Source: Hydrogenovibrio crunogenus
Lineage (GTDB): Bacteria; Pseudomonadota; Gammaproteobacteria; Thiomicrospirales; Thiomicrospiraceae
Length of the DNA: 64,000 nucleotides
Direction: 5' to 3'
Assembly (NCBI RefSeq): GCF_004786015.1
Contig: NZ_CP032096.1
Span: forward strand, 2,356,001 to 2,420,000
Under the pieces are notes generated by a model. The model was not told the origin of the DNA and did no database searches. It saw only the letters and a program-made list of their open reading frames with translations. The translations under genes and the position numbers were made by a program. Below are positions 3,844 to 53,341 of this stretch, in pieces (positions within the stretch are counted from its first letter, which is position 1; each line of letters starts with the position of its first letter).

Positions 3844-6258
3844 TTAGACCTCCAATCCCATGGATTTCAGGTGGTCGGCAACTTTTTCACTTAAAGCCGA
3901 CACTTGGCTTTCGATTTTGGGCAAAGTTTCAGCGTAGCGTTCTTCCAGCTCTTTCACTCGGTTGGCGAGTTGTTGGGTGATGCGTTCAATTTCGGCTTCA
4001 ATATTCGCTTGTAAGGTAGCCAACCATTTATCTTCAACAATCAGCGCTTTAATCTCCGATTCCACCAAACCTGGGTATTTTTTAAAGACCGCTAAATCCA
4101 AGGCTTCTTGCGCTTCTTTCAGTGTTTTTTTGGCTTTGGCTTCGCTTTCAAATTGTTTTTGAACCGTTATTAACAGTGCTTTTTCGTCTGCCTCGGTGAC
4201 GATTTTTAATCTGGCGGTCACAGTGGCTTTGGTGACTTTGTCTTTATCGTTCATTGCCTCGACCAGTAATCCGTCTTCACCGCTGTTTTCTCCGATTAGG
4301 GTTTCCAGCTCTTGCGTAATGCTGTCCAGTTCGGTTTGCTGCTGTTCGATTTGCGCTTGTTGGTCGGCAAAATAACGAGAAACCACCAGGCCTGGTGGAA
4401 TCAGTTCGGCTTTGTATTTGGCTTTGCCAATGATTAAATCCGGCGTTTCTTTGAGTTTTTCGCCTTTGGCGACTTTGAGTTCTCGAATACGGCTACCCGC
4501 TTGCCAGCCGTCTTGCACCAAGACATAAACATCGTCCTGCATAATGTCTGCCCAGTAATCCATGAGGATTTGATAGATATCGTATTTGCTTAACAGCGGC
4601 GCATCTGTATAGGCCTGTAACAAGGCTTCACTAATACGGTGAATAATGGCTTTAGGCGCCTCGCCAATTTGCAGCTTTGTTAAGTCGCAGGCTTGATACC
4701 AGTCGCTAAACGGTTTCAGACTTTGTTTGGCAAAATGCATAAACTCTGGATGGTTCAAAATTGTGCTTTTGACGTGACTGGCTTCTACCAACCCCTTGCT
4801 GTAGCCTTCTCGATCATCGTCAAACAAGGTGGCGCGAATACTGGGAAAGACTTGCCAATATTCGTTTAATGCATCAATATCGGCATTGGGAATACCGCCT
4901 TGTAAGTGGGCGCTTAGATCATGTAAATCTTCCGGTTCGGAGCTGTCGATATAGCGCGGAATATTAAGGTTGTAATCGTTGTCAGCAATTTCCTGCATGG
5001 CCACCATGCGGCTAAAACGTGGTAGCTGGATTTGTTTGGTAAACACATCGACGATTTTGTGCAGATCCTGCGAACGCAGACGGTTTTTATTGCCGTCTTT
5101 AATAAAGCCTTTGCTGGCATCGACCATAAAAATGCCCGTGCGGGATTGAGCCTGTTCTTTATCGACCACAATAATACAAGCCGGAATGCCGGTGCCGTAA
5201 AACAGGTTGGCAGGCAGACCGATAATGCCTTTGATATAGCCTTGTTTGATCAGATTTTCACGAATGCGCGCCTCGGCATTACCACGGAATAACACACCAT
5301 GCGGCAAAATTACTGCGGCTTTACCCGTGCTTTTAAGCGATTTTAGAATATGCAGTAAAAAGGCATAGTCGCCGTTTTTCTCTGGTGGCACGCCCCAATG
5401 AAAACGATCTAACTCGTCCTGTTCCGGATTCAGACCCGACGTCCAGTTTTTGGAAGAAAACGGAGGGTTGGCCACCGCAAAATCAAAGCGCTTGAGTTCA
5501 CCATTGGCTTCTTTCCACTCTGGCTCAGCAAGCGTGTTCCCTTTTACGATTTTAGCGGTAGCGGTATTATGCAGAATCATGTTCATACGTGCCAAGGCGC
5601 TGGTGGCATTGTCCATTTCTTGACCGTAAATCGTCATACCGCGCGGACTCTCATCGCTGACTTTAAGCAGTAACGAACCGGAACCGCAGGTGGGATCGTA
5701 AACAGTGGTATCTTGCGACGTTTGATTGTTAATACCAATCACTTTGGCGAGAATGCGAGAGACTTCCGCGGGCGTGTAGAATTGTCCTTTGGATTTGCCG
5801 GACTCCGTCGCAAAGTGGCGCATTAGGTATTCGTAGGCATCGCCGAGCAGATCATCGCCTTCAGCTCGGTTGGCGGATAGGTTTAAACCATCAAAAATAC
5901 CGACCAACTTACTGAGTCGGTCCACCATGTCCTTGCCCTTGCCGAGCTTTTCTTCATCATTGAAGTCGGCCACATCAATGACGCCTTTGAGGTCATTTTC
6001 TTCAGCCAGCGCGGCAATGATTTTATTGAATTTGTCACCAATTTCTTTATCGCCTTTGAGCTTGAGCATATCCTCAAAGCTGCCGCCATCCGGTACCACA
6101 ATCATGCCGTAAGGATCGCCTTTGTATTTATCAGAGACATACTTCATAAACAGCAGCGTCAATACATAATCCTTGTACTGACTGGCATCCATGCCGCCAC
6201 GTAATGCATCGCAGCTTGCCCAAAGAGAGGAATAAAGTTCGGTTTTTTTAATGGCCAT
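3844..6258 (-). CDS. hsdM: type I restriction-modification methyltransferase HsdM
   Basis: An N6-adenine methyltransferase subunit. It has an N-terminal helical HsdM_N region, the SAM-binding motif DPTCGSGSLLL, and the catalytic motif NPPF (VANPPFSSKNW). At 804 residues it is much longer than the classical 500-530. The extension after about residue 620 is rich in charged coiled-coil helices (QQAQIEQQQTELDSI; final helical repeats to KVADHLKSMGLEV). It abuts hsdS. No hsdR is visible in the window, so restriction activity is not supported; modification alone is possible. Confidence 0.92.
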   Translation of the reverse strand: MAIKKTELYSSLWASCDALRGGMDASQYKDYVLTLLFMKYVSDKYKGDPYGMIVVPDGGSFEDMLKLKGDKEIGDKFNKIIAALAEENDLKGVIDVADFNDEEKLGKGKDMVDRLSKLVGIFDGLNLSANRAEGDDLLGDAYEYLMRHFATESGKSKGQFYTPAEVSRILAKVIGINNQTSQDTTVYDPTCGSGSLLLKVSDESPRGMTIYGQEMDNATSALARMNMILHNTATAKIVKGNTLAEPEWKEANGELKRFDFAVANPPFSSKNWTSGLNPEQDELDRFHWGVPPEKNGDYAFLLHILKSLKSTGKAAVILPHGVLFRGNAEARIRENLIKQGYIKGIIGLPANLFYGTGIPACIIVVDKEQAQSRTGIFMVDASKGFIKDGNKNRLRSQDLHKIVDVFTKQIQLPRFSRMVAMQEIADNDYNLNIPRYIDSSEPEDLHDLSAHLQGGIPNADIDALNEYWQVFPSIRATLFDDDREGYSKGLVEASHVKSTILNHPEFMHFAKQSLKPFSDWYQACDLTKLQIGEAPKAIIHRISEALLQAYTDAPLLSKYDIYQILMDYWADIMQDDVYVLVQDGWQAGSRIRELKVAKGEKLKETPDLIIGKAKYKAELIPPGLVVSRYFADQQAQIEQQQTELDSITQELETLIGENSGEDGLLVEAMNDKDKVTKATVTARLKIVTEADEKALLITVQKQFESEAKAKKTLKEAQEALDLAVFKKYPGLVESEIKALIVEDKWLATLQANIEAEIERITQQLANRVKELEERYAETLPKIESQVSALSEKVADHLKSMGLEV
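4386..4395. repeat. CCAGGCCTGG palindrome, copy 1
   Basis: Inside hsdM, extended to CCACCAGGCCTGGTGG. Confidence 0.8.
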
Positions 6259-6287
6259 GTTGAGTTTTATTTTCTTTTTAATGTTGG

Positions 6288-6932
6288 TTATTTAATAACG
6301 GGAAAAGTGAGTTGTCCGAATTCGGTATCGCCAGATTCCATCATGATATCAATCATCACGGGGACTATTTTTTCCATGATGCGTCTTCCGTCTTGCACCT
6401 GTTGGCGATTGACATAAGAGTTCCAAGTGGCACCGCCGTGAATCAATTGGTTGCGTAATACATACAAGCGATCAAAGACAATGGATAACACCTCGGCTGT
6501 ATGATTCTGCATCAACTTGCCGATAGCCGCTTTTTTACTGGCTTCAAACTTGCGTTTCCACTCTTCACTGCTGTCGTGTTCACGTAATGCCTTCCAGAAG
6601 GGTTCAAATACAAATTTATTCTCGATCAGAGTGCGTATTTCACCACTAAAGGCTTGAAATAATAACGGATGAAGCTGTTGTTTTGAATCGACTTCGATCA
6701 TTTTTTGGAAAAAAAGACCGAGTGACTCTCTTTCAGATCGTCTTGACCCTAGTTCTTCAGCATAAGCGGCATTGAAGGCGATCCAGAGAAAGATGAATTT
6801 AGCATCGTCATCTTCAGTTTCTTGTTCGGAGCGTTCCAGCCATTTTAATGCGCGGTGAATACGAATATTGTTTGGTTCTGAAAGGGACTCGAATAGAGAC
6901 TTATGTTTTTGTTTTAATGCAATATAATCCAT
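6288..6932 (-). CDS. HEPN-like protein in hsd operon
   Basis: A 214-residue, mostly helical soluble protein. Residues 160-165 read R-N-Q-L-I-H, the RX4H signature of HEPN ribonucleases, in a predicted helix as in that superfamily. It lies 29 bp upstream of hsdM and 39 bp downstream of the DUF2779 gene, all leftward. Type I systems are known to carry HEPN anticodon nucleases (PrrC, RloC) as guards, but this protein is short and has no ATPase part, so the analogy is only contextual. Without a search the motif could be coincidental. Confidence 0.55.
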   Translation of the reverse strand: MDYIALKQKHKSLFESLSEPNNIRIHRALKWLERSEQETEDDDAKFIFLWIAFNAAYAEELGSRRSERESLGLFFQKMIEVDSKQQLHPLLFQAFSGEIRTLIENKFVFEPFWKALREHDSSEEWKRKFEASKKAAIGKLMQNHTAEVLSIVFDRLYVLRNQLIHGGATWNSYVNRQQVQDGRRIMEKIVPVMIDIMMESGDTEFGQLTFPVIK

Positions 6933-6971
6933 TTATTATTTCCCTGGTTAACACTCTAACAAGCTATAAAT

Positions 6972-8438
6972 TTAAGCAACTAATGAAACCAATTTTTGGT
7001 AAATTTTAACCATTGCCAAAGTATCCAAGTGACAATAGGCGAGTAAATCATGTCTAATCTTTTGTCGCTGATTCTGATCATTTAACAAATGTAACTTGGC
7101 AAAAATATCCATCGCCATACCACCGTTTTGAATTTCGAGTTTTTTGTAATCTAGTTCTGGGTCGTCTGGAAACATAGCCGGTAAAACTGACTTGATTGAG
7201 AAGCTGCCATTAAAGTCTGGATGGTAATAGCCGAGTTGCTTAAAAGGATCCATAAGATCTATAAACCGTTCATGCATTTGCATCAGCTCTGCTTGATAGC
7301 CACTCACCGTTTTTGCGAGCTCTCTAATGACACCTTGTTCAAAACTTTTATTAAAGGCCATAATGCTCCCTACAGGCTCAATGTCTTTGATCATCTGTCG
7401 TACGATATCCTCTCTTGGATCTGCATTTTCATCGCCCAAAAATTCTTTATGTTCCAGCGCTCCATCTTCATGAAGAACATGAAGGGAATATTGAAAAGGA
7501 ATTTTCATGTAGGGTTTTTGACCATCAAACCTTGGAATGGCATCTTGAAAAGTCTCAAAATCAAAAAAATGAATGGGAAATTGCACGGAATCAACAAAGC
7601 TTCTTAGAACATCTTTATTGATAAGGGGTTGCTGGTTAATCGAGCTTTGAACTTGTACTTGTTGAACATCTGAGAGATTTTGACCTGATGGTATTTGCTC
7701 AAATTCAACGATGCCTTGACGGTATAAATCAAACTTTTTATTGACATTCATTCGGTATAGATTAAAAACAGATGGAGATGGAATATCTTTCCAACAATGA
7801 GCTTTAAAGTCACATTCATGAGGATTGGTACAGTGAGCGCCTAATTCAACTTGAGGCTCTTCAGCCTTTATCATTTCTTCCATTGCATTTAAGCGAATAG
7901 GAATTTCCGCTTGCTTAGTTAAAACAATGTCAGTGATATCAACAACTGTAAATAGCTGATCAATGTCGAGATCGCCTTGCCTTATGTACTGATTGTTAAT
8001 GTGTACGATCGCGATTCGGTTTAAATCTAAAACTTTCGAAAAGGCGTACCATTGAACTGCGGCATCATCTTGGTAATAGTCTTTAACACTCGTGGATGCT
8101 TTTACTTCATAAACATCCCACTTATCATCATTCTTTACCAGGATATCCGCCATAGCAAAGACGCCATTTTCTTTAAAGGTGGCTTCATAAATAATCGAAA
8201 CGCCCTGATCGATGAGTTCTTGTGTGCGCTGAACCATCCCTTCAAAGTCTTTTGAATCAAACTCAATTTCTATCCCACCAGGGAATAATTGGCAAGCCAA
8301 GCTTCCGACAGTATGCCCTGTATCAAATTTGGCTTGTTGTTGTGCATCAGGAAGCGTTCTGAGTTCAGGTTGATTTTTGTATAGCCATAAGGATTTATGA
8401 CATTGGAGACCTCGAATATATTGAGACTTAGATAACAA
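6972..8438 (-). CDS. DUF2779 protein: Cas4/RecB-like nuclease plus DEDD exonuclease-like domain
   Basis: A 488-residue protein beginning with TTG at 8438 behind an AAGGA site. The N-terminal half has a PD-(D/E)XK pattern (E86, D98, then E111-V-K113) and four cysteines in Cas4-like arrangement (C13, then C203, C209, C215), suggesting an iron-sulfur nuclease. The C-terminal half has RNase-H/DEDD-type residues (DFETF at 293-297, FNKSFE at about 362-367, HLDT at 470-473). It heads the operon that continues into the HEPN and hsdMS genes. A defence nuclease role is likely but unproven. Confidence 0.75.
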   Translation of the reverse strand: MLSKSQYIRGLQCHKSLWLYKNQPELRTLPDAQQQAKFDTGHTVGSLACQLFPGGIEIEFDSKDFEGMVQRTQELIDQGVSIIYEATFKENGVFAMADILVKNDDKWDVYEVKASTSVKDYYQDDAAVQWYAFSKVLDLNRIAIVHINNQYIRQGDLDIDQLFTVVDITDIVLTKQAEIPIRLNAMEEMIKAEEPQVELGAHCTNPHECDFKAHCWKDIPSPSVFNLYRMNVNKKFDLYRQGIVEFEQIPSGQNLSDVQQVQVQSSINQQPLINKDVLRSFVDSVQFPIHFFDFETFQDAIPRFDGQKPYMKIPFQYSLHVLHEDGALEHKEFLGDENADPREDIVRQMIKDIEPVGSIMAFNKSFEQGVIRELAKTVSGYQAELMQMHERFIDLMDPFKQLGYYHPDFNGSFSIKSVLPAMFPDDPELDYKKLEIQNGGMAMDIFAKLHLLNDQNQRQKIRHDLLAYCHLDTLAMVKIYQKLVSLVA

Positions 8439-49351: not shown

Positions 49352-50056
49352 TTAAAACTTGTAATACCCCCAACCTTTTTGCATTTTATTGACAATTTCA
49401 TCAATGGCGGTTGTATTGGTTTGCACACCTTTAATCACCGAGACAGGCTTGCCTTCATCTGCACGTCGCTTTAACGCTTTCTGGCAAGCAATCAGCTTCA
49501 AGTTATCATATTGGGCCAATAAATTCACAATGGCTTGTCGGCTTGGGTTATTCTCTTCAAAAAGCTCGATACCATGATCATTTGCCACAATTTCAATCTG
49601 CATTTTAGGCATTCCCGAATCCGTTGACTGAGCCTGCAATAACGCACTGGTTTTCTGCAGTAATGCCTGCGTTCTTTCAGGTCGGTTAGAATCAATATGC
49701 AACAATAACTTTTGGGGAGCGTTTTGCGCTATCGATAGGACCTTAGACTCATGCGATGGGCCTAATAATGAATCGGACGAAGCAAAAAATCCAAGCCCAA
49801 AAGCCGCAACAAAAGAGGCCGCTACAGCCCAGCTTGAATTAAAAGATCTAGATGGTGACTTAGGTATTTTCGGCACGGGCACTTTTTGATAATGCTCCAG
49901 CATTTGTTGCTTAATTTTTCTTAACTCGCACACTTCGTCTTGCAGTGCTTTATCTTGCTGCAGAATTCTTTCAAACTCGGCACGCTCTACTCCGGTCAAT
50001 TCACCATCAATGTAGGCATGAATATCTGGATGAGCAGCTCTTTGACTGTGATTCAT
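49352..50056 (-). CDS. membrane anti-sigma factor with periplasmic DsrE-like domain
   Basis: 234 residues. Residues 1-60 form a RseA/ChrR-type sigma-binding region (HPDIHAYIDGELTGVERAEF) without a zinc HxxxCxxC motif. A single membrane helix follows (about 75-93, WAVAASFVAAFGLGFFAS). Residues 115-234 form a DsrE-like fold with a cysteine at 191 (LKLIACQKAL) in the position of the Cys in the two DsrE proteins encoded divergently. It overlaps the sigma gene by 4 bp. An unusual architecture: a sulfur/redox sensor domain on an anti-sigma factor is inferred. Confidence 0.8.
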   Translation of the reverse strand: MNHSQRAAHPDIHAYIDGELTGVERAEFERILQQDKALQDEVCELRKIKQQMLEHYQKVPVPKIPKSPSRSFNSSWAVAASFVAAFGLGFFASSDSLLGPSHESKVLSIAQNAPQKLLLHIDSNRPERTQALLQKTSALLQAQSTDSGMPKMQIEIVANDHGIELFEENNPSRQAIVNLLAQYDNLKLIACQKALKRRADEGKPVSVIKGVQTNTTAIDEIVNKMQKGWGYYKF

Positions 50057-50631
50057 TTTGAATTACTCTTTTTCAGGTCAACGACATTGTTTGCATAATT
50101 TGGAATATACTTTTCACTCGTGACCAGTTTTTTGAGCTTTTCACGGCCTCGTGACAATCGGCTCATCACCGTTCCGACGGGCACTTCAGCAATCTCTGCA
50201 ACTTCCTGATAAGAATACCCTTGCAAATCGACTAACACAATCGCTTCTCTCTGGTTAATCGGCAGACTACCAATGGCGGCATGTATATTTCGAATTGTTA
50301 GTTTTTGAATATAAAGTGTTTCGATTGACTCTGTTCGTAACTGTTCATCACACTCATCTACATTTACCGGTTGCCAGCGTGCATTTTGTCGACAGTTATC
50401 ATAAAAAAGGTTATGCATAATCTTACACAGCCAACGATCTATATTTTCAAAGCTGGTGATCTGATCCGCTTTTTGTAAAGACTTTAGCATCGTCTCCTGC
50501 ACCAAATCTTGGGCAAGCGATTCATCCTGACTCCAAGCGTAAGCGATACGATACAAATTAGCATAATGCGATTCCAGCACCGCATTTAGCTTTACCTGAT
50601 TTGTTTTTAATTTGACCCAATTACCAATCAT
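50053..50631 (-). CDS. ECF-family RNA polymerase sigma factor
   Basis: 192 residues: region 2 (YRIAYAWSQDESLAQDLVQE, DRWLCKIMHNLFYDNCR) and region 4 (LPINQREAIVLVDLQGYSYQEVAEIAEVPVGTVMSRLSRGRE). It is translationally coupled to the anti-sigma gene. A perfect FNR-type box sits at about -43 of a TTGTCT/TATGAT promoter in front of it, suggesting oxygen-linked activation. Its regulon probably includes the divergent dsrE-dsrE-porin genes. Confidence 0.92.
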   Translation of the reverse strand: MIGNWVKLKTNQVKLNAVLESHYANLYRIAYAWSQDESLAQDLVQETMLKSLQKADQITSFENIDRWLCKIMHNLFYDNCRQNARWQPVNVDECDEQLRTESIETLYIQKLTIRNIHAAIGSLPINQREAIVLVDLQGYSYQEVAEIAEVPVGTVMSRLSRGREKLKKLVTSEKYIPNYANNVVDLKKSNSK

Positions 50632-50651
50632 AAAAAAATTCCCTTTTTTTC

Positions 50652-50680
50652 ATCATAGATAAAAGTCACGTCAAAGACAA
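50652..50680 (-). promoter_or_regulatory. candidate sigma-70 promoter of ECF-sigma gene
   Basis: Minus-strand TTGTCT (50680-50675), 17-bp spacer, TATGAT (50657-50652). The FNR box abuts its -35 side. Confidence 0.45.
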
Positions 50681-50682
50681 GC

Positions 50683-50696
50683 TTGATTTATATCAA
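50683..50696. promoter_or_regulatory. FNR/Anr box
   Basis: TTGATTTATATCAA: perfect TTGAT-N4-ATCAA. Centre 50689.5 lies roughly 41-45 bp upstream of the predicted start of the ECF-sigma transcript, the class II activator position. Confidence 0.7.
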
Positions 50697-50728
50697 TAAG
50701 AATATAACCATTTCATTAAATAAGATTC

Positions 50729-50752
50729 GGTTATTTACCCATAGAAATAACC
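50729..50752. repeat. dyad in the ECF/DsrE divergent region
   Basis: GGTTATTT-ACCCATAG-AAATAACC: 8-bp perfect arms with an 8-bp spacer, midway between FNR box and ECF-type promoter. Possible operator. Confidence 0.45.
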
Positions 50753-50765
50753 ATCTCAACCAGTC

Positions 50766-50795
50766 GGAATAAAGTGGAAGGTTTTTACGTTACTA
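50766..50795 (+). promoter_or_regulatory. candidate ECF-sigma promoter of dsrE-dsrE-porin unit
   Basis: GGAATAAA (50766-50773), 14 bp, CGTTACTA (50788-50795). The GGAAT/CGTT pattern and spacing are typical of ECF promoters. About 50 bp upstream of the first DsrE gene. Confidence 0.55.
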
Positions 50796-50841
50796 GGGGT
50801 GAGTACTTATTAAAGACTCACGAAACCGGAGGAATTAAATC

Positions 50842-51300
50842 GTGATTAATAAAAAAACCAACTTATTTATTTTTAGCTGGATGATGTCCATGCTCGTTTC
50901 TTTAAACGTGCTGGCTGCACAAGAACCGCCTTTACCTGACACTTTTGCTGAACATAAAATTGTTATGCAAATCAGTGACCCCAACCCTTTCAAACAAACG
51001 CTGGTCTTGAATGTAGCGGGAAACCTGGTTAAGTACTACGGTTCAACCAATATGGACTTGGAAATTGTCGCTTTTGGACCGGGTGTCCGCTTGATGCTGG
51101 AAGGCAATGTCAACACGCCGCGCATTAAGGCACTTATGGCCACCGGCGTCCGCTTCAGTGCTTGCGAAAACACTTTGACAAACTTTGCAAAAATTTTGGG
51201 CAAGAAACCTAAATTAATTGAAGGGATTGATATTGTTCCAGCCGGAGCCGCTCGCATTATTCAGCTTAATGAAGCCGGCTACAAAACATTAAAACCATAA
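50842..51300 (+). CDS. secreted DsrE-family protein 1
   Basis: 152 residues from a GTG behind GGAGG, with a Sec signal ending near LNVLAAQ. The mature domain matches the COG1416/DsrE pattern: HKIVMQIS at the start, VAFGPGVRLMLEG, C108 in VRFSACENTL, and DIVPAGAARIIQLNEAGYK near the end. DsrE/TusD relatives carry sulfur on a cysteine, and the Cys is in the equivalent helix start. Periplasmic location is unusual for classical DsrE. It lies 36 bp before a second copy. Confidence 0.8.
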   Translation: MINKKTNLFIFSWMMSMLVSLNVLAAQEPPLPDTFAEHKIVMQISDPNPFKQTLVLNVAGNLVKYYGSTNMDLEIVAFGPGVRLMLEGNVNTPRIKALMATGVRFSACENTLTNFAKILGKKPKLIEGIDIVPAGAARIIQLNEAGYKTLKP

Positions 51301-51336
51301 TAAAAACTATTTTCAAAAATAGAGAAGGATTGAAAC

Positions 51337-51828
51337 ATGAAAACGAAAAACCTATTGATCTCCAGTTTAATCGGCTTCATCAGCTTTTTTGGCATCACTC
51401 AAGCAGCACAGGCTGACAACCACAGCTATGGTCATCAAAAAGTGGTGTACCACATTAATTATGATAATGCGAAAAAGCAGTCTGGCACATTACGTAACAT
51501 TCAAAACCATATCAATGCCGTCGGTGCGGACAATCTTGATGTCCGAGTCGTACTGCATGGAAATGGACTTTCGTTGCTCTTAAAACCTGATGCTTTGAAA
51601 AACGTACCGAAGTTTAAAGCTGCCAATTCAACAACGGCAATGCAACAAAAAGTCGACAGCTTGAAAATGCAGGGCGTTCACTTCAATGTTTGTGCCAATA
51701 CCGTTAAGGGACGCAAAGTAGATATCAAGCATGATTTATATGATGTGGGCAATAAAGATGTCGTGCCGAGTGGTGTGGCGGAACTGGCTCATTTACAGCA
51801 GCAAGGTTTTGTCTATTTAAGACCGTAA
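51337..51828 (+). CDS. secreted DsrE-family protein 2
   Basis: 163 residues with a signal peptide (LIGFISFFGITQAAQA) and a COG1416-type domain: KVVYHINYD, VVLHGNGLSLLL, C119 in VHFNVCANTV, DVVPSGVAELAHLQQQGF. It is clearly a paralogue of the upstream DsrE protein and of the anti-sigma C-terminal domain. The two secreted proteins could form a hetero-oligomer or carry the signal read by the anti-sigma factor; that is inference. Confidence 0.82.
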   Translation: MKTKNLLISSLIGFISFFGITQAAQADNHSYGHQKVVYHINYDNAKKQSGTLRNIQNHINAVGADNLDVRVVLHGNGLSLLLKPDALKNVPKFKAANSTTAMQQKVDSLKMQGVHFNVCANTVKGRKVDIKHDLYDVGNKDVVPSGVAELAHLQQQGFVYLRP

Positions 51829-51889
51829 CTTTTTAGCTTTAATACGATACTAACGCATAAACACTTAAAATATATTAGAGAAGAGGCTT

Positions 51890-53191
51890 ATGAAAAAACA
51901 ATTTTTAGTCAAATTACTTCCTGCTGCAATCATTGCAGCAACCATGACAACACCTGCCCAAGCAGCTAACTGGTTAATGCTACAAGGAACGGAAGCAGAC
52001 CACCAAGCAGCTCGTGCAAAAGTATGGGGCTTTATTCAAGCAGAATATCAACAAACAGATAATACCAAGCTCAAGGCTGGTCCAGGAAAAGGAGAAAGCG
52101 CAGCCTTTAACCAAATCAAGCCTCAGAATAGTACTGCCAGCAGCTTTAATATTCGCCGTGCTCGTATCGGTGTGCGCGGTGCAAATTTACCACTTGATAA
52201 CAAAGTTAATTATTTTTTCTTAGCGGAATTTGGAAATAATGGGATTACCACGGGACAAAATGCTTCACAAGGTCAATTAACAGACGCAAGTGTGACTTTA
52301 AACCATATCCCTGGCGCTCGTGTTCGAGTCGGTCAATTTAAGACACCGGGCTCAGAAGAAGGGTTTCAGGGCGTCGCGGTCTTTAACTATATCAATTTCA
52401 CCAATATGACGGACCGTTTATTACTGGAACGCCACTTTGATAAATCGACAGGAAATTCGTCAAGAAACGGGCCGGTTGGTGCTTTCCGTGACCAAGGGAT
52501 TGAGGTATTTGACTCCTTTAAATACAAAGGCTGGGACACCAGTTATGCCGTAATGGTTGGGAATGGTAACGGCATTGGCCGAATCGATAATAATGAAGCT
52601 CGAGATACCTACCTTTATCTTTCAACCGAAATGGACATCAAAGGTGGTAAAAAAGGCCGCAAAAACGGGTTGAAATTCTATGTTTGGAATCAGGATGGTA
52701 AGCGCACCATCGATAATGGTGTCGAGAAAAACCGCACACGTTCAGGGTTAGGGACTACCTTCTTAAACAGTAAATACCGTTTCGCCGCCGAATATGTACA
52801 AGCCGACGGGATGATTTTTGGTGGAACAACAGGGGGAAGAACACCGGCTAATGGCGGAACATTTAATGTCTTCACTGACCAAAAAGCCGATGGTTACTAC
52901 TTAGACTTTGGCTATCGCATCATTCCAAAACTAGAGCTTAACCTGCGTTATGATGCCTTGGACAGCGCGACTGAAAAAGACTCTGCAACAGGTACGAATG
53001 CTGACAAATATCGTGAGTTCAGAACCACAACGCTCGGGGCACAGTATTTTGTTAATAAAAAGACTGTTATCAGAGCGAACTATGAAATTCGGGATATCAA
53101 AGCACCCAAAGCGCCATCAGGTGCACCGGTACATGATATTTTAAAAAGCCTGGATAATCGTTTAGCCCTTCAACTTTCTGTTGTTTTCTAA
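51890..53191 (+). CDS. OprP/OprO-type outer-membrane porin
   Basis: 433 residues with a signal peptide (AAIIAATMTTPAQA), then beta-barrel sequence: FNIRRARIGVRGANLP, KVNYFFLAEFG, ARVRVGQFKTPGSEEGF, and a C-terminal Phe (LALQLSVVF) as outer-membrane barrels require. This resembles phosphate-selective porins, but the anion may differ. It follows the DsrE genes by 62 bp, likely in the same regulon, so transport of an oxyanion or sulfur compound is possible. Confidence 0.85.
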   Translation: MKKQFLVKLLPAAIIAATMTTPAQAANWLMLQGTEADHQAARAKVWGFIQAEYQQTDNTKLKAGPGKGESAAFNQIKPQNSTASSFNIRRARIGVRGANLPLDNKVNYFFLAEFGNNGITTGQNASQGQLTDASVTLNHIPGARVRVGQFKTPGSEEGFQGVAVFNYINFTNMTDRLLLERHFDKSTGNSSRNGPVGAFRDQGIEVFDSFKYKGWDTSYAVMVGNGNGIGRIDNNEARDTYLYLSTEMDIKGGKKGRKNGLKFYVWNQDGKRTIDNGVEKNRTRSGLGTTFLNSKYRFAAEYVQADGMIFGGTTGGRTPANGGTFNVFTDQKADGYYLDFGYRIIPKLELNLRYDALDSATEKDSATGTNADKYREFRTTTLGAQYFVNKKTVIRANYEIRDIKAPKAPSGAPVHDILKSLDNRLALQLSVVF

Positions 53192-53309: not shown

Positions 53310-53341
53310 CCTGCTATAAATGTTTTATAGCAGGGTTTTTT
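53310..53341 (+). terminator. rho-independent terminator after porin
   Basis: CCTGCTATAAA/TTTATAGCAGG stem-loop followed by GTTTTTT. Confidence 0.88.

Follow-up and report, generated by a model that had tools for sequence, protein, structure and literature searches.

A DsrE-domain anti-sigma factor beside secreted DsrE proteins and a porin in Hydrogenovibrio crunogenus: a candidate switch for periplasmic sulfur chemistry

Within a 64,000-nucleotide stretch of Hydrogenovibrio crunogenus DNA (contig NZ_CP032096.1, positions 2,356,001 to 2,420,000; hereafter the window), we analysed a five-gene locus that appears to couple an extracytoplasmic function (ECF) sigma factor to a DsrE-type sensor domain. 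The genes for the sigma factor (ecf) and for a transmembrane anti-sigma factor lie on the minus strand, divergent from a plus-strand unit that encodes two predicted secreted DsrE proteins, termed D1 and D2, and a porin. An open reading frame (ORF) scan found all five genes where an initial annotation of the window had placed them, and the locus is laid out as follows (window positions):

49352..50056, minus strand: anti-sigma factor, 234 amino acids (ORF; helices at about residues 10-58, membrane helix at about 75-95, DsrE domain at about 114-234)
49355..49717, minus strand: residues 114-234 of the anti-sigma factor, forming its DsrE domain (profile comparison and predicted structure)
49484..49486, minus strand: codon of Cys191 of the anti-sigma factor, its sole cysteine after residue 100 (present in 138/138 aligned rows)
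50053..50631, minus strand: ECF sigma factor, 192 amino acids (Pfam Sigma70 r2 and r4_2), overlapping the start of the anti-sigma gene by 4 nt
50766..50791, plus strand: GGAATAAA-N14-CGTT, predicted promoter of the ECF type, its 3' end about 50 nt from the D1 start
50842..51300, plus strand: D1, predicted secreted DsrE protein, 152 amino acids, GTG start, Cys108 (PF02635)
51337..51828, plus strand: D2, predicted secreted DsrE protein, 163 amino acids, Cys119 (PF02635)
51890..53191, plus strand: OprP-like (Porin_O_P) outer-membrane porin, 433 amino acids (PF07396)
53310..53334, plus strand: terminator-like hairpin and T run 3' of the porin gene (pattern scan)

The ECF protein contains Sigma70 regions 2 and 4 only, as expected of this type of sigma factor (45.7 bits for Sigma70_r2 and 62.2 bits for r4_2, both above cut-off), and scored 82.9 against TIGR02937, for which the cut-off is 42.9. 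D1 and D2 both exceeded the PF02635 gathering score of 22.7 (24.8 and 44.4 bits, respectively), and the porin reached 48.1 bits against Porin_O_P (PF07396; cut-off 20.9)—bearing out the initial description of the divergent unit as two DsrE proteins and an OprP-like porin. The signal peptides of D1, D2 and the porin were judged by inspection, supplemented in the case of D1 and D2 by a simple measure of hydropathy.

The anti-sigma factor has the features of a class I transmembrane anti-sigma factor, i.e., predicted N-terminal helices, a hydrophobic segment and a 4-nt gene overlap with ecf. Its N-terminus matched an NCBIfam antisigma model with an E-value of 1.7e-9 and a score that falls short of that model's whole-protein cut-off, and the AlphaFold model places helices at residues 10-16, 22-34 and 36-58 ahead of a C-terminal DsrE fold. 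For comparison across relatives we assembled 138 anti-sigma rows, representing 122 distinct sequences, from the window and from 36 family, 59 D1-locus and 40 class loci (some loci contribute more than one row); every one has a hydrophobic segment in the region of residues 62 to 112. A zinc-finger N-terminus was considered and rejected: zf-HC2 scored 21.9 bits, just below its cut-off of 22.2, six of 56 relatives matched that model at E <= 0.001 and no obvious HxxxCxxC motif was seen by eye. In one draft genome (L072, 1863-2553), the anti-sigma gene is split by a frameshift into two ORFs, and these pieces were excluded from the hidden Markov model and from the 138 rows.

There is little doubt, from profiles and predicted structure, that the C-terminus of the anti-sigma factor is a DsrE domain, as the initial annotation had held. 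The window protein alone scored 14.7 bits (E 0.036) against Pfam DsrE, under the gathering cut-off of 22.7 that D1 and D2 surpass, and we therefore class the domain as a homologue of the DsrE fold rather than as a Pfam member by threshold. Profile-to-profile comparison with hhalign linked the anti-sigma factor to D1 (E 8.6e-13) and to D2 (E 1.2e-7), with the cysteines in register, and the anti-sigma profile retrieved, from the PDB sequences, the solved proteins 1l1s (MTH1491; E 7.3e-20) and 2pd2 (E 1.9e-10), each with a cysteine aligned to the invariant one. The predicted domain is modelled with high confidence (predicted local distance difference test, pLDDT, block means of 83-98, mostly 94-98); Foldseek matched it to 1l1s at E 3.9e-8, and VIA-align superposed 110 residues, within residues 114-234, on the same entry with a Z-score of 18.4 and a root-mean-square deviation of 1.7. 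Scores of Z 17.2 to ST0148 (2pd2) and 14.0 to YchN (1jx7) followed, with DsrE-fold entries reaching down to Z 11.5 and other folds dropping to Z 7.5. By these models, the domain is nearest to the MTH1491 branch of the sulfur-carrier fold. The D1 model (pLDDT 92.5) also had 1l1s as its top Foldseek match, and D1 and the anti-sigma factor share their first three structural matches. In a quick tree, the anti-sigma DsrE domains formed one separate clade on long branches (Shimodaira-Hasegawa-like approximate likelihood ratio test, SH-aLRT, 97), from which it is likely that the fusion of a DsrE domain to an anti-sigma factor arose once; D2 proteins likewise formed one clade, and D1 proteins did not (2 changes).

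The cysteine of this domain is invariant. Cys191 is present in all 138 rows, in each of which it is the sole cysteine beyond residue 100, and among 56 diverse anti-sigma factors with 21-53% identity to the window protein it is one of only four invariant columns, together with D17, G228 and W229. It lies right after a predicted strand (residues 186-190) and ahead of a helix (192-200)—the end-of-strand position that the D1 model also shows. Cys108 of D1 (codon 51163-51165) is kept in 52/52 D1 sequences and Cys119 of D2 (codon 51691-51693) in 14/14 D2 sequences, and in every sequence of either protein no other cysteine follows residue 30. The three cysteines align with one another, as the initial annotation had noted with correct residue numbers, and the C191 site matches the cysteine of MTH1491. 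With no second periplasmic cysteine in the 138 rows, sensing by an intramolecular disulfide is excluded; if sensing proceeds through the lone Cys191, it would involve an adduct (persulfide, thiosulfonate or sulfenate) or an intermolecular bond. The latter could serve a thiol redox sensor, in which oxygen or oxidants oxidise Cys191 to a sulfenate or to a disulfide between two anti-sigma factors or with a partner, and a single invariant periplasmic cysteine could indeed form such a bond. We consider this explanation highly improbable, given the exclusion of the usual intramolecular disulfide, an output made up of sulfur carriers and a porin, and the tight association with SoxB genomes described below.

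The divergent unit is likely controlled by the adjoining sigma factor, judging from the intergenic sequences. In 31/31 family pairs, the divergent output gene is preceded by the motif GGAATA-N14-19-CGTN, of which about 0.024 matches per 520 bp would be expected by chance (0.02-0.04 across the sets), and the motif occurs once in the window, at 50766-50791, with both strands scanned. Matches were also found in 42/64 pairs from D1 loci and in 13/27 of the class set; the sets overlap, as 12 D1-set pairs share motif letters with family-set pairs, and two class loci (L202 and L214), with two ECF genes and one target apiece, enter the class count two times each. In several relatives the motif also precedes ecf itself, a position at which it is absent in the window. 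The candidate wider regulon was rejected: GGAATAN{15,16}CGTT gave 9 sites in the genome of the window against 10 for the reversed control, and the second GGAATAAA-type site of that genome falls inside an ORF belonging to what looks by eye like a fliPQR-type gene cluster for flagellar export. In view of this lack of enrichment, the sigma factor probably serves mainly the D1-D2-porin operon.

The -35 GGAAT and -10 CGT elements of the window site and of the 31 family pairs correspond to the consensus of the ECF26 group, which the factor resembles by its promoter. In excerpts from PMC6527743, -35 GGAAT and -10 CGTC are given for the ECF26 promoters in S. meliloti and in Starkeya novella, with transcription starts located by rapid amplification of cDNA 5' ends (5'RACE), and these passages describe no further strong matches in either genome. 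The locus might be a form, in gammaproteobacteria, of the ECF26 response to sulfite, with sulfite from thiosulfate or sulfide oxidation triggering release. The promoter type is the same, strong promoter matches are few in both systems, and ECF26 factors respond to thiosulfate and taurine, which generate sulfite (PMC3511301, in part). We nevertheless regard a sulfite sensor as quite unlikely: the outputs here are DsrE proteins and a porin rather than a sulfite dehydrogenase, the carrier DsrE3A was unreactive with sulfite in the results drawn from PMC4175335, and, among the matches listed for 398 phylum genomes, the three genomes with a full-length DsrE anti-sigma factor all belong to the class of the window, such that alphaproteobacterial systems appear not to use a DsrE sensor.

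Other features of the intergenic region are recorded here in their own right. An AT-rich block of the CTTATGAAATAA / CATTAAATAAG type lies between ecf and the output promoter (window about 50710-50735) and is repeated, by eye, in many family loci (relatives L039-L075). A perfect palindrome, TTGATTTATATCAA, stands at 50683-50696, 52-65 nt 5' of the ecf start; it resembles an FNR/Anr box, and inspection by eye did not find it in the intergenic regions of relatives. Beyond the porin gene, the hairpin at 53310..53334 is weak on its own, as six terminator-like sites were observed against 4.3 expected in shuffled sequence.

The locus was compared with 62 family, 369 class and 398 phylum genomes. The anti-sigma factor occurs in 37/62 family genomes. 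Besides the window, 37 family loci were read: an ECF gene adjoins the anti-sigma gene at all 37, and D1, D2 or the porin is present at 35; in the other two (L050 and L058) the contig breaks off close to ecf. A GTDB-based genome collection was also scanned with D1, and the best 80 of 183 confirmed stretches were taken as D1 loci. Their titles are gammaproteobacterial throughout, with one titled only 'Proteobacteria', and these best 80 include Hydrogenovibrio, Thiomicrospira, Thiomicrorhabdus, Guyparkeria and Thiohalobacter—genera known as sulfur oxidisers—with Thiomicrospira sp. WB1 and Hydrogenovibrio sp. JE_KL2 as the best named matches. ECF and anti-sigma genes were both present in 54 of the 62 loci with 2500 nt upstream, and a porin followed within 500 nt of D1 in 64 of the 72 with 1200 nt downstream; D2 was found in 11/62, so that among relatives the unit occurs with or without it. 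At the class level, a full-length anti-sigma factor (best E <= 1e-27) is encoded in 65/369 genomes. From this search, 40 anti-sigma loci were hand-picked, not at random, as the top matches followed by others that include second copies: 21 have D1, four D2 only, four the porin only and 11 none of these, one of the last (L187) stopping at a contig end just before ecf. Among the phylum matches listed, no full-length DsrE anti-sigma factor was seen outside the window's class, and, of 18 loci fetched from that search, the 16 that come from other genomes encode proteins of the DsrE type and gave no match to ECF or anti-sigma in the 10-11 kb fetched.

These neighbourhoods bear on whether the anti-sigma factor reads its own output proteins, as the initial annotation suggested—a possible reading and one of two live versions. 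D1 (or D2) might hetero-oligomerise with the anti-sigma DsrE domain or hand sulfur to Cys191, and the switch would then read the amount of loaded or empty carrier, closing a feedback loop. The homology of the anti-sigma domain with D1 extends over the whole domain, the sigma and anti-sigma genes stand beside D1 at most testable loci, and D1 or D2 is a neighbour in 25/40 anti-sigma loci; relatives of these proteins also assemble, as a TusBCD structure is titled heterohexameric and DsrEFH is described, in the part of PMC13047784 used here, as a double heterotrimer. On the other side, the separate long-branch clade sets the anti-sigma domains apart, and 15 of the 40 loci lack a clear D1 or D2 neighbour (one of them, L213, has a weak 28-bit D2 match), yet all 15 keep the cysteine. 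We consider this reading, by carrier relay or occupancy, unlikely, and the anti-sigma factor probably can sense without an adjoining DsrE gene, as its retained cysteine suggests.

Side observations on these gene families include a similar-looking divergent protein of about 550 amino acids at two anti-sigma loci without DsrE or porin neighbours (L211 2213-3883 and L225 2721-4337); it had no Pfam match (L225) and no NCBIfam match (both), and a DUF3859 protein adjoins it in L225. The genome of the window, a single contig of 2.45 Mb, has eight PF02635 matches (L001, L002, L004, L005, L006 and L008), two of which are D1 and D2; judged by eye, the ORFs in L002 and L006 have a secreted look as well. 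Thiomicrospira sp. WB1 carries a second D1-porin pair (L108; D1 5959-6318, porin 6453-7802) with no ECF or anti-sigma gene within 6 kb. Extra D2 copies lie beyond the anti-sigma gene, on its other side, in L068 (7321-7824) and L069 (8723-9253).

The anti-sigma factor is also associated with sulfur oxidation. With SoxB presence set at a best E <= 1e-100, SoxB was found in 64 of the 65 class genomes with a full-length anti-sigma factor and in 86/304 others (Fisher p 1.9e-28, uncorrected for kinship). In some relatives the link is physical. Locus L241 reads, on one strand, ecf, anti-sigma gene, soxX, an unassigned ORF, soxA and soxB, with the promoter motif ahead of ecf and a D1-like gene divergent from it. 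In L199, soxA, soxB and a D1-like gene lie near the anti-sigma and ecf genes, and the other side carries D1, the porin, a thioredoxin-like gene and a Sulf_transp (TsuA/YeeE-like) gene. The SoxX, SoxA and SoxB proteins exceed their NCBIfam cut-offs; the L199 transporter exceeds the Pfam Sulf_transp cut-off and falls below the NCBIfam TsuA cut-offs, and the D1-like proteins match the D1 profile and miss Pfam DsrE at E <= 0.001. In L240, match coordinates place SoxB about 2.5 kb from the anti-sigma gene. A further SoxB neighbour, in L192, was dropped, as the contig-end ORF scored 100.9 bits against an NCBIfam cut-off of 550; between ecf and this SoxB/5'-nucleotidase-like ORF (about 1431-1520), the motif occurs in both directions. 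Excerpts from a study of Sulfurovum (PMC10045233) report that a dsrE gene adjoining soxABXYZ rises 2.2-3.8 fold on thiosulfate, as do its neighbours, and propose OprD-type porins, as yet unproven, as a polysulfide route. This association with sulfur oxidation is firmer than the initial annotation could have foreseen; the redox state that it proposed loses the intramolecular disulfide.

The porin itself invites another explanation, namely a response of the unit to phosphate limitation or to stress at the outer membrane, with DsrE serving merely as a structural, ligand-binding fold. The output porin does belong to a phosphate-selective family according to Pfam; set against this are the invariant cysteine, which sensor and outputs have at one and the same site, the ECF26-type promoter, and the soxX, soxA, soxB and Sulf_transp neighbours in relatives, and we judge this explanation very unlikely.

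A DsrE domain with an invariant cysteine, accompanied by DsrE carriers and a porin, looks like a sensor of sulfur compounds, an idea that is well supported in outline. Our preferred reading, which we hold with evenly divided confidence, is that the locus is an ECF/transmembrane anti-sigma switch for periplasmic sulfur chemistry, sensing through Cys191 of the DsrE domain. The anti-sigma N-terminus would bind the sigma factor and hold it at the inner membrane, where its inhibition is predicted. Cys191 would be loaded by some reactive form of sulfur (tetrathionate or another polythionate, a polysulfide, or a sulfur group from a DsrE carrier), and the loaded domain would change state so that the anti-sigma factor frees the sigma factor, be it through proteolysis or a conformational change, the switch thus running from loading to release. 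The freed sigma factor would transcribe D1-D2-porin from GGAATAAA-N14-CGTT, the presumed output being periplasmic DsrE carriers of sulfur and an anion-type porin that admits sulfur anions. A precedent for the loading step comes from Metallosphaera, where, according to excerpts from PMC4175335, DsrE3A reacts with tetrathionate to form a Cys-S-thiosulfonate that is passed to TusA.

Several observations weigh against this reading. Relatives of OprP are known for phosphate. The promoter motif is missing in 22/64 D1-locus pairs and 14/27 class pairs, and some of the matches in these two sets lie at positions that may be due to chance. Only 6/56 single anti-sigma proteins match DsrE at E <= 0.001, 11/40 anti-sigma loci have no DsrE or porin neighbour, and the 86 SoxB genomes in which no anti-sigma factor was detected at the thresholds used indicate that it is not needed for Sox. 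In the portion of PMC4175335 drawn on here, moreover, DsrE3A was unreactive with polysulfide, glutathione persulfide (GSSH), sulfide, thiosulfate and sulfite, and DsrE2B with all six compounds; the fold is therefore no guarantee of reactivity, and polysulfide is not favoured by precedent.

Tentatively, a more specific mechanism can be put forward, doubtful as it is at present: the DsrE domain may receive a thiosulfonate or persulfide on Cys191 from its secreted paralogue D1, with this sulfur relay acting as the signal to the ECF26-like sigma factor. If true, a sulfur carrier would have become a membrane receptor, and the unit would represent a transmembrane sensor dedicated to the periplasmic sulfur pool across gammaproteobacterial sulfur oxidisers, wired to sox in some of them. 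To our knowledge, the sensing of periplasmic sulfur intermediates by sulfur oxidisers is largely an open question, and the locus offers a candidate receptor with one mutable residue, a defined promoter and a gene unit that is conserved among genera for which named isolates or genomes exist. A fold familiar as a sulfur carrier may, it suggests, also act as a sensor, and it hints that the porin and the secreted DsrE proteins serve sulfur-anion uptake.

The observation made in the initial annotation is borne out, more strongly than it was put, and its interpretation in part. The initial annotation knew of no described system of this kind. We recognised no description of a DsrE anti-sigma factor in the open-access literature searched (most subscription papers fell outside the search); the sigma factor and its promoter resemble the ECF26 systems already described. 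Two Hydrogenovibrio papers (PMC5733100 and PMC6501319) name dsrE homologues, and the terms 'sigma factor' and 'porin' are absent from their main texts; the parts consulted of an Arcobacter ECF paper and of a Riftia-symbiont paper contain nothing on a DsrE anti-sigma system. A word search for 'DsrE' in PMC6527743 and PMC3511301 returned a single match, DsRed, in the latter. The ECF26 sulfite-response systems treated in these two papers (RpoE1/RpoE4 of S. meliloti and SigE of Starkeya novella, with SorT and SorA) likewise pair an ECF factor with a co-encoded anti-sigma factor and, as far as the excerpts go, share with the present locus the -35 GGAAT / -10 CGT(C) promoter, few strong matches and sulfur-oxidation outputs; unlike here, these outputs are sulfite dehydrogenases, SorT in Sinorhizobium and SorA in Starkeya.

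Other comparisons concern the two halves of the anti-sigma factor. Its DsrE fold is shared with MTH1491 (1l1s), ST0148 (2pd2), YchN (1jx7), DsrEFH (2hy5) and the DsrE3A protein SSO1125 (3mc3), at Z-scores of 18.4 to 11.6; DsrE/TusD-type carriers are not fused to an anti-sigma factor, whereas here the fold is predicted to form the periplasmic part of a membrane-bound one. FecR, RseA and RslA are other class I transmembrane anti-sigma factors, and the predicted arrangement here is like theirs—sigma-binding helices in the cytoplasm, one membrane helix and a periplasmic sensor. Residues 5-64 aligned to RslA (3hug_B) with a Z-score of 5.5, within the range of unrelated helical parts. What differs from proteins of the FecR/RseA/RslA type is that the sensor domain is DsrE and that the output has a porin other than a TonB receptor. 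Sulfane sulfur is sensed through cysteines by PerR, OxyR and AdpA, as well as by SqrR, BigR and CstR, all of them cytoplasmic proteins that bind DNA; unlike them, the anti-sigma factor described here would be a periplasmic sensor with a sigma factor as its output to the cell.

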